From Dehalococcoides mccartyi CG5 (lineage in GTDB: Bacteria; Chloroflexota; Dehalococcoidia; Dehalococcoidales; Dehalococcoidaceae), in contig NZ_CP006951.1 of assembly GCF_000830885.1 (NCBI RefSeq), forward strand, positions 1 through 64,000: DNA of 64,000 nucleotides, given 5' to 3'. The notes beneath the pieces are model-generated. The model searched no databases, was not told the DNA's origin, and saw only the letters and a program-made list of their open reading frames with translations. The position numbers were made by a program, and so were the translations under genes. Below are positions 261 through 6,016 of this stretch, piece by piece; position 1 is the stretch's first letter; each line of letters begins with the position of its first letter.

Positions 261-1595
261 TTGTCTATTCGGCCTGCACAAGAACTATGGGAAACAGCCC
301 TGGGGGAGATTGAACTTCAGGTAAACAAGCCCAATTTCCGTACCTGGTTTGCCAAAACTGTCGGCCTTAAATACGACGGCAGTGAATTTGTTATAGGCGT
401 TCCCAATACTTTTGTGGCCGAATATCTGGAGCTTAATCAGCGTTCGCTGATTGAAAAAACCCTGATAAATACTACCCACAGTCCGGTAGAGCTCTGTTTT
501 CAGCTTATCCAGTCCGGGCAGGTACCGGCTGCTGTTCCTCAGACAAACAAACAGAAACAGGAATCTCCCTTTAATCCCCGTTATACCTTTGAATCTTTCA
601 TAGTGGGGTCATGCAACCGCATGGCTCACGCTGCCTCGCTGGCAGCCGCCCAGAATCCCGGAAAGAGTTATAACCCTCTTTATATTTATGCAGAGGCTGG
701 TTTAGGCAAAACCCATCTCCTGCAGGCCATCGGACATCTGGCAAACCTGAACCGCCGCAAGGCTCTGTATGTCAGCGGAGAACAGTTTACCACTGACTTT
801 ATATCTTCTATCCGAAACGGCCAAACTGAAGAATTCCGTTCCCGTTACCGGGATGTAGACCTATTGCTTTTGGATGATGTCCAGTTTATTGGCGGTAAGG
901 AACAGACTGAAGAATGTTTATTCCATACCTTTAATGATCTGCATAATTCCAACCGCCAGATAGTTATTTCGGCAGATTCCCCACCCAAGTCACTGCCCCA
1001 GCTGGCCGAAAGATTACGGTCACGCTTTGAGTGGGGGCTCACTATTGAGATTGAACCGCCGGATGAAAAAACCCGTCTTGAGCTTCTGCAGCTTAAAGCT
1101 GAGCAATCCGGTACAGAACTGAATATGGATACTCTGGAATATCTGGCACAGGCAGTGAAGCACAATATCCGCGAACTGGAAGGCAGCCTTAACCGGGTGC
1201 TGGCGTATGCCCGTTTGCTAAGGGCTGCCATTACCCCCGACCTGGCTGCCAGAGCCCTTTCGGACATTGGCTCCCGTCCGGTCAGGGAAAACAGCCCCCT
1301 TCGTCCGGGTAATATAATTTCAGCCGTATCCCAGGTATTTCAGATACCGACAACCGAACTTTTGGGTGCCGCCCGTGACAAAGATACTGCTCTGGCCCGC
1401 CAGTTTGCCATGTTTATACTCAAACAACAAAATTCTGCCTCTCTGGTAGAGATAGGTCAGTCTTTAGGCGGAAGAAGTGCTTCTACCGTCAGCCATGCCT
1501 GTGATAAAATCCAGCTGGAGCTGGAAAACAGCACCTTTCTGCGTCTGAAAATGACCGAGGTTCAAAACCACCTTTCCCAACAGCGCCTTCCCTGA
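261..1595 (+). CDS. dnaA: Chromosomal replication initiator DnaA
   Basis: AAA+ initiator that binds origin boxes and melts DNA to load the replicative helicase. The start is TTG with GGGAGG 7 nt upstream; length 444 aa is typical. The N-terminal helicase-interaction domain covers about residues 1-80. The AAA+ core starts near 106, with a P-loop AEAGLGKTH at 144-152 (the first glycine of the usual GxxGxGKT is Ala) and Walker B LLLLDDVQF near 201. Domain IV is at the C-terminus. The signature that is normally GGRDHTTVxHA reads GGRSASTVSHA at 403-413, so the three base-contacting residues Asp-His-Thr are Ser-Ala-Ser. The region just after the gene carries the candidate origin. Identification is certain; altered box specificity is inferred. 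Confidence 0.98.
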   Translation: MSIRPAQELWETALGEIELQVNKPNFRTWFAKTVGLKYDGSEFVIGVPNTFVAEYLELNQRSLIEKTLINTTHSPVELCFQLIQSGQVPAAVPQTNKQKQESPFNPRYTFESFIVGSCNRMAHAASLAAAQNPGKSYNPLYIYAEAGLGKTHLLQAIGHLANLNRRKALYVSGEQFTTDFISSIRNGQTEEFRSRYRDVDLLLLDDVQFIGGKEQTEECLFHTFNDLHNSNRQIVISADSPPKSLPQLAERLRSRFEWGLTIEIEPPDEKTRLELLQLKAEQSGTELNMDTLEYLAQAVKHNIRELEGSLNRVLAYARLLRAAITPDLAARALSDIGSRPVRENSPLRPGNIISAVSQVFQIPTTELLGAARDKDTALARQFAMFILKQQNSASLVEIGQSLGGRSASTVSHACDKIQLELENSTFLRLKMTEVQNHLSQQRLP

Positions 1596-1925
1596 TTCCT
1601 TTAACTGCCATTTATTCCTGACATTTCCATGGTTGTTGTTTTTTCTGTAATACTTGGTTGCCCACCGGGGGCATTTACAGGTTTTTTCTATTCCTTTTCG
1701 ACAGTCTTTCTATAACTTCGGTATATTTTTCGATAACCGGACTAAATTTTAGATAACTTTAAGAAATCTCTGCTTTAAAAAATGGCTTCGTGCTTTAAAA
1801 TAGCGATTTTATTCGTAAAGTCTTATTATTATTATTTCTGATATACTTAAAAATAAACAAGTTAAAGTTTAAGTGATTTCGATAACCTAAGAATTAGATA
1901 ACTTTTTAGATAAGGTGTTTTAGAG
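1596..1925. other. Candidate oriC with five GATAA-core DnaA boxes
   Basis: AT-rich 330-bp spacer between dnaA and obgE. Five same-strand nonamers of the form WTTMGATAA lie at 1728-1736, 1748-1756, 1877-1885, 1893-1901 and 1905-1913, spaced 20, 129, 16 and 12 bp. Each matches the reverse complement of the canonical box (TGTGGATAA) at 6 or 7 of 9 positions, keeping GATAA and losing the CAC half. A 10-bp direct repeat TGCTTTAAAA (1771-1780 and 1791-1800) and a very AT-rich tract (about 1800-1880) between the two box groups could be the unwinding element. Location next to dnaA fits known bacterial origins; function is inferred. Confidence 0.7.
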
Positions 1926-3200
1926 ATGTTTGACAGAGTAGAAATTAATATCAAGGCTGGAGACGGCGGTAGTGGCAAGGTGAGCTTCAGGCGTGAAAAA
2001 TTCGTTCCTTACGGCGGGCCTGACGGGGGCGACGGCGGAGACGGCGGCAACGTATATCTGGAAGCTGATTCCGGGCTTTACAGCCTTTTAAATTTTAAGC
2101 ATAAAAGAGTTCATAAAGCCTCTAACGGTGAAGGCGGTATGGGCAGCCGTTGCACTGGCCACAACGGGGCAGACCTGGTGATAAAAGTGCCGGTTGGTAC
2201 GGTGGCTACTATTCTGGAGGAAAACGGCCAGAAAAGGGTTCTGGCTGATTTGGCGGCCGACGGAGACCGCACCCTGGTAGCTCACGGGGGACAGGGAGGG
2301 TTGGGTAATACCCATTTTGTTTCCTCTACCAATCAAGCCCCCATGCTGGCTCAAAAAGGCCAGCCGGGCGGCGAATATGACCTGATACTGGAACTGAAAC
2401 TTATTGCCGATGTGGCTATTATCGGCTATCCGAATGTGGGCAAGTCTTCACTGCTTTCCCTGCTGACAGCGGCTAAACCCAAAGTAGCCAACTATCCTTT
2501 TACTACTCTATCACCGGTAATGGGGGTTATCGAACGTCCGGAGGGTGTCTTTGTCATGGCAGAAGTACCCGGACTTATTGAAAATGCCCATCTGGGCAAG
2601 GGTCTCGGGCACGATTTCTTACGCCATATTTCCCGCACCCGTATGGTTATCCACCTGCTGGATGGCACTTCAGAAAACCCTATAGACGATATGATAAAGG
2701 TCAACAGCGAGCTGTATCTTTACGATGCCTCTTTGTCCGAACGCCCCCAGGTGGTAGCTATAAACAAGATAGATGATGAGCTGGTACAGCTCAGGCGGGA
2801 AGAACTTAAGGAGACTTTTAAAGAAGCCGGGCTGGAGGTATTTTTTATTTCCGCCCTGACAGGCGAAGGGGTGGATGTACTGCTGGCTAAAGTAGCGGAA
2901 AAGCTGGACATTCTTAAAGCGGCGGATATATCCGAAACAGCTCCCGACCATGAAGTAAAGATTTTCCGGCCTGCCCCCAAGGGTAAAATGGGTTTTCGTA
3001 TTACCCGTTTGGAAGATGGCTGGCAGGTGGAAGCCCCTGAGATTGAGCGGATTATTGAGCACTCTGATATTGAAGACCCGGAGGTCAGGCGGCAGGTAAT
3101 GGTGCTTTTGAAACACCGCAGTGTCCAGCAATCTTTGATAAAGTCCGGGGCAGTTATCGGCCAAAAGATTATAACCGGCAGGATGGAATGGTATCTTTAA
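1926..3200 (+). CDS. obgE: GTPase Obg/CgtA
   Basis: Ribosome-associated GTPase needed for 50S maturation and stress control. It has the glycine-rich Obg fold at the N-terminus (about 1-158, with GGxGGxGG runs), a G domain with P-loop GYPNVGKSS near 165, a TTLSP switch I and DxPG-like EVPGLIE, the NKID specificity motif near 280, and a C-terminal OCT domain. Length 424 aa matches Gram-positive Obg. Its stop codon lies inside the start of nadD (13-nt overlap), as in the obg-nadD order of many bacteria, so the two are probably co-translated. The start is ATG right after the oriC-like boxes, so transcription of obgE may be affected by DnaA binding (inference). Confidence 0.97.
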   Translation: MFDRVEINIKAGDGGSGKVSFRREKFVPYGGPDGGDGGDGGNVYLEADSGLYSLLNFKHKRVHKASNGEGGMGSRCTGHNGADLVIKVPVGTVATILEENGQKRVLADLAADGDRTLVAHGGQGGLGNTHFVSSTNQAPMLAQKGQPGGEYDLILELKLIADVAIIGYPNVGKSSLLSLLTAAKPKVANYPFTTLSPVMGVIERPEGVFVMAEVPGLIENAHLGKGLGHDFLRHISRTRMVIHLLDGTSENPIDDMIKVNSELYLYDASLSERPQVVAINKIDDELVQLRREELKETFKEAGLEVFFISALTGEGVDVLLAKVAEKLDILKAADISETAPDHEVKIFRPAPKGKMGFRITRLEDGWQVEAPEIERIIEHSDIEDPEVRRQVMVLLKHRSVQQSLIKSGAVIGQKIITGRMEWYL

Positions 3201-5976: not shown

Positions 5977-6016
5977 GAATTTAGCTATACGCCAGCTTTG
6001 GCTGGCAGAAGAAGGA

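Follow-up and report, generated by a model that had tools for sequence, protein, structure and literature searches.

The dnaA-obg locus and its initiator protein

The analysed window comprises the first 64,000 nucleotides of the Dehalococcoides mccartyi CG5 contig NZ_CP006951.1. Close to its start lies dnaA (261-1595, plus strand), which begins with a TTG codon and encodes 444 amino acids matching the Pfam profiles DnaA_N, Bac_DnaA and Bac_DnaA_C, all above cut-off and in that order. The adjoining gap (1596-1925) is followed by obg (1926-3200, plus strand), which codes for a GTPase and is the neighbour of the putative origin. As for the rest of the neighbourhood up to position 6000, the translations point to a nicotinate-nucleotide adenylyltransferase-like gene and an opposite-strand gyrB near dnaA, dnaN not being adjacent. 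A Pfam profile search of the whole 1.36-Mb genome returned a single Bac_DnaA_C match, making this protein the sole DnaA.

Domain IV, the DNA-binding helix-turn-helix (HTH) domain, is encoded at 1311-1511 (plus strand; PF08299, 72.7 bits) and was aligned to the corresponding E. coli structure, PDB 1J1V. An AlphaFold2 model of the protein retains the HTH, has solved DnaA structures as its best fold matches, and places the recognition helix at residues 407-423 (1479-1529, plus strand). N-terminal, AAA+ and C-terminal HTH domains are thus united in a single protein, together with a conserved Arg372 (1374-1376, plus strand), which aligns with E. coli Arg399. In E. coli, Arg399 is the minor-groove reader of the 5' TTA of the box, and major-groove recognition of the 3' part falls to the recognition helix (PMC5742627).

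The DnaA signature encoded at 1467-1499 (plus strand) reads GGRSASTVSHA, its E. coli counterpart being GGRDHTTVLHA. Where canonical TTATCCACA-binding DnaA proteins carry D433-H434-[T/S]435, S406-A407-S408 is found (1476-1484, plus strand), and S411 (1491-1493, plus strand) stands in place of L438 inside the recognition helix. The sequence-only reading had reported the loss of all three residues of the triad: D433 and H434 are indeed gone, but the claim was overstated for T435, whose replacement by serine is conservative and also ordinary, D-H-S being common in DnaA proteins with canonical boxes. Judged by the alignments, what sets this protein apart is the loss of D433 and, most of all, of H434, together with L438S. 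These are no sequencing accident as far as S-A-S is concerned, since the same motif occurs in two further species of the genus and [STA]AA in all eight genomes of the sister genus (taken as Dehalogenimonas), the triads of the family being SAS (three species), TAA, SAA and AAA.

Candidate boxes and origin between dnaA and obg

Five TTATC[T/G]AA[A/T] sites, all on the minus strand, lie at 1728-1913 of the dnaA-obg gap and are considered here as variant candidate DnaA boxes. The first, TTATCGAAA (1728-1736), occupies a position conserved between species; the other four, identified by motif match and species alignment, are TTATCTAAA at 1748-1756 (TTATCGAAA in genome G083), TTATCGAAA at 1877-1885, TTATCTAAT at 1893-1901 and TTATCTAAA at 1905-1913. 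A possible degenerate sixth box, TTATAGAAA (1707-1715, minus strand), appears conserved in three species, as read from the alignment. Between the three species the box positions are conserved while their bases turn over, mostly inside the motif. The pattern is not frequent in the genome as a whole, with 51 sites per 1.36 Mb vs. 79, hence fewer, than for a reversed-pattern control. Concerning its clustering, a sample of 2,459 windows of 500 bp from elsewhere in three genomes included no case with at least three TTATCNAA[ACT] sites, and the dnaA-obg stretch has five.

The cluster is located beside an AT-rich stretch (1751-1900; 21-24% GC, in a gap with a stretch of 21-29% GC), a candidate unwinding element, and at a local minimum of the cumulative GC skew (1750-1850), a layout typical of oriC. 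Sampled genome-wide, the skew is positive from the gap to ~0.7 Mb and negative thence back to the start. A TAA repeat on the minus strand near 1828-1841, noted by eye only, lies ~36 bp from the nearest box; the rule for the basal unwinding system is at least three DnaA-trios within 16 bp of a box (PMC8287927).

As for the canonical box, TTATCCACA has no exact match in the 64-kb window, hence none in 1596-1925, although this absence alone says little because only 0.6 matches are expected by chance. Its nearest one-mismatch relative, TTATCCACC at 2647, lies inside obg, and the TTWTNCACA box cluster expected at a canonical origin was not found within 1596-1925. The earlier statements that the canonical box is absent nearby and that a different repeat is present are therefore both borne out. 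Across the 64-kb window, one-mismatch relatives of TTATCCACA are over-represented (32 vs. 14 expected), scattered and not at the origin.

In 79 of 109 loci of the order and family, dnaA and obg are adjacent and in the same orientation, with a gap of mostly 200-330 bp. In Dehalogenimonas, dnaA is no longer beside obg; its relocation has left it, in several genomes, at a distance of tens to hundreds of kb from the obg-linked origin. A search for a box cluster around dnaA in this sister genus found none, and variant boxes are present upstream of obg (two to five sites within 500 bp, mostly on one strand) in 11/11 genomes of the family. In genome G113, the skew switches sign in the interval 1.18-1.35 Mb, close to obg (1.316 Mb), with no such switch at dnaA (~1 kb). 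Since the boxes stay at obg after dnaA has moved, and the G113 skew flips there, the variant box belongs to the origin and not to the dnaA promoter. The GC skew of genome G068 is too noisy to locate its origin. Records of the sister genus (dnaA L154-L162, obg L196-L203) often begin at dnaA, which then is not the origin. By family the protein is a DnaA, at an ordinary kind of origin and with a predicted altered specificity.

Residue 434 and box type among relatives

Alignment of domain IV among relatives, as the sequence-only reading had proposed, found the triad change restricted to particular lineages and tracking box type. H434 is kept in 79 of 80 loci, mostly from distant phyla, which were obtained by a related-locus search and used as an outside control; the sole exception is a Dehalococcoidia MAG, and D-H-S occurs in 10 of the 80. 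From the rest of the class, beyond the order, 27 members were sampled; as best-scoring matches they lean towards the canonical form, and they carry DHS (18/27), DHT and one NHA. Across ~110 Dehalococcoidales genomes, His434 is often replaced and the triads are very diverse (NPS, NAS, SPA, SPS, DAA, DPS, EPI, QPI, TPS and more), ~20 loci retaining His434. One MAG, G277 (L165, L192, L346), has DnaA and Obg in two copies each, from different lineages, and is probably chimeric.

Motif-free word counts gave TTATCNACA as the top word in the H434 loci of the class, where it is also prominent in those of the order, and TTATCNAAA as the strongest word not of obg-coding type in the loci of the order that have lost H434. 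Among the 64 possible suffixes of TTATCN, ACA occurs 46 times in H434 loci vs. 1.9 expected, and AAA 65 times in H434-lost loci vs. 14.0 expected. Sorted by locus within the order and family, 15 C-box (TTATCNACA) loci and one A-box locus keep H434, vs. two C-box and 44 A-box (TTATCNAA[A/T]) loci without it (Fisher 2e-11, for loci that are related by descent). The three discordant loci (L135, L048 and L078) each rest on a single site, and a recognisable box is missing from many loci. Of all 438 DnaA columns, column 434 is the best predictor of box type (phi 0.88), with columns 438 and 433 in the top five. Box position 6 is mostly C or A where H434 is present, and G, A or T in its absence. Loci that have lost Asp433 and kept His434 (NHS, THS, NHA) retain ACA boxes; a rule linking D433 to position 6 stays tentative, with just seven sites among the H434 loci lacking D433. 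Loci of the types D[AP]x or [EQ][PA]I (L096, L099, L101, L115, L120, L139, L141, L145, L147, L064, L077, L094, L127, L142, L146) lack a clear box of the TTATC type between dnaA and obg, and their box may differ again.

The different target suggested by the sequence-only reading thus appears real but modest: TTATC is kept, and the change concerns mainly position 8 (C to A) plus position 6. The unchanged half fits the conserved Arg399 equivalent, and the change falls in the half that the recognition helix reads. Likewise, the locus counts and the first rank of column 434 argue for the suggested co-evolution of initiator and origin, on a wider scale than had been suggested.

A second lineage, the GC-rich family f45, belongs to the same class; nearly all its genomes have K, R, A or P at 434, mostly K/R. 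Neither TTATCNACA nor TTATCNAAA sites were found there, nor any box by dnaA. A candidate box, approximately TTCCCAACG, forms arrays within 400 bp upstream of obg (L345-L372), with 113 sites in 24 of 27 loci vs. 11 in shuffles, the motif having been fitted on the same regions; the dnaA flanks of the family contain 26 such sites in 22.7 kb. At one box position, where C is the base in most other genomes, G is found in the three that carry Ser433 (SRS). The pairing of K/R434 with a candidate box of its own is suggestive only. In G152 (L373-L392), a strong GC skew (about +0.27 to -0.25) flips sign at obg in a terminus-like direction; gene orientation, estimated by roughly counting ORFs, is by contrast as expected for an origin at obg, possibly with an inverted GC skew.

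The number of switches was considered on a tree of DnaA domains I-III and Obg, from which domain IV was excluded. On this tree, no fewer than ten changes of the H434 label are required, only two of which are forced by well-supported branches, and a sign test restricted to fully supported branches has no power. Among edge-disjoint contrasts on the best trees, four to seven of seven and three to six of six are concordant, with none opposed in the best pairings. Deep branches being weak, the number of independent switches is uncertain; several independent switches of His434 and box are likely, though not proven.

A probable switch of specificity and its alternatives

We consider it highly probable, on these comparative grounds, that the protein is a functional DnaA, that its domain IV has acquired a different sequence specificity, and that the boxes of the origin have changed in step with it. 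The Arg399 equivalent would keep reading the 5' TTA in the minor groove, and the recognition helix the 3' part of the box in the major groove. Replacement of His434 by a small residue (Ala, Pro), usually together with the loss of Asp433 and the presence of Ser438, would have turned TTATC-N-A-C-A into TTATC-N-A-A-A, i.e. C to A at position 8, with C avoided at position 6. DnaA would then bind the approximately five boxes flanking the AT-rich stretch directly, assemble and open the origin in the usual way.

Shared ancestry alone, by which helix and intergenic word drifted in the same clades with no functional link, might produce such an association, and well-supported independent contrasts are indeed few. 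It would, however, predict equally good prediction by columns all over DnaA, whereas column 434 leads and the base-contacting 438 and 433 follow closely; moreover, no contrast is opposed in the best pairings, and ACA boxes persist in the NHS and THS loci, which sit among relatives that have lost H434. We therefore regard this explanation as improbable. Somewhat less probable still is that a different regulator, for instance of obg, uses the TTATC[T/G]AAA cluster, with DnaA binding elsewhere or with relaxed specificity: the sites lie upstream of obg in every genome of the family and would overlap its promoter, but canonical TTATCNACA occupies the same place where DnaA has His434, the skew minima fall at the cluster, TTATC is common to the canonical box, and the cluster tracks DnaA residues.

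The drift of a canonical box towards A/T by mutation bias is the least credible of these alternatives and was rejected, since base composition does not separate the box types. Although the origin region is AT-rich, the GC content of the dnaA flanks is similar for A-box (mean 0.451, range up to 0.62) and C-box loci (0.479), A boxes are present in the GC-rich sister genus, and the replacements of C at position 6 include G, not just A and T.

Few bacterial protein-DNA interactions are as conserved as the pairing of DnaA with its box, and a change in one partner would be expected to be nearly lethal without a matching change in the other. It is conceivable, if a little less probable than the contrary, that the Dehalococcoidia are a natural laboratory in which repeated replacements of His434 were each accompanied by a corresponding box change (A/P434 with TTATCNAAA, K/R434 with approximately TTCCCAACG). 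If so, a code relating residues to bases would emerge for the box's 3' half, linking residue 434 to position 8 and possibly residue 433 to position 6. With relatives in several states, it becomes directly testable by what route an essential initiator acquires a new target and which bases are read by which residues. From a practical point of view, origin finders relying on TTATCCACA would miss origins in Dehalococcoidia, and order-specific candidate boxes are now available for organohalide-respiring bacteria used in bioremediation.

Comparison with known initiators and origins

The domain layout, AAA+ fold, HTH and Arg399 equivalent are those of canonical DnaA (E. coli 1J1V, B. subtilis 8BTG), and the TTATC half of the box and the box cluster beside an AT-rich stretch are those of canonical oriC. 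The differences are the replacement of D433, H434 and L438 and a box 3' half of NAAA/NAAT, not NACA. Using Ori-Finder, Gao and Zhang (2008; PMC2275245) proposed TTATCGAAA in silico as a Dehalococcoides species-specific box, the same word as found here, no protein-side cause being given in the accessible part of that paper. Beyond this proposal, the present analysis ties the box to H434 across the order, TTATCTAAA and TTATCTAAT included. No published link of the box to His434 in Dehalococcoidales was found in a literature search that covered only a minority of subscription journals.

In Epsilonproteobacteria, helix-5 changes at 435 and 438-439 have been linked to altered box recognition (PMC5043019). 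Their DnaA likewise has Ser at 438 (PMC5043019), but retains the D-H pair at 433-434 and is affected at box position 5, whereas the present DnaA lacks His434 and its candidate boxes differ at positions 6 and 8. In Thermotoga maritima DnaA, a single Arg is the only conserved base-contact residue, and the box is 12 bp long (PMC7561715); unlike this extended motif, the box described here keeps the 9-bp TTATC type.
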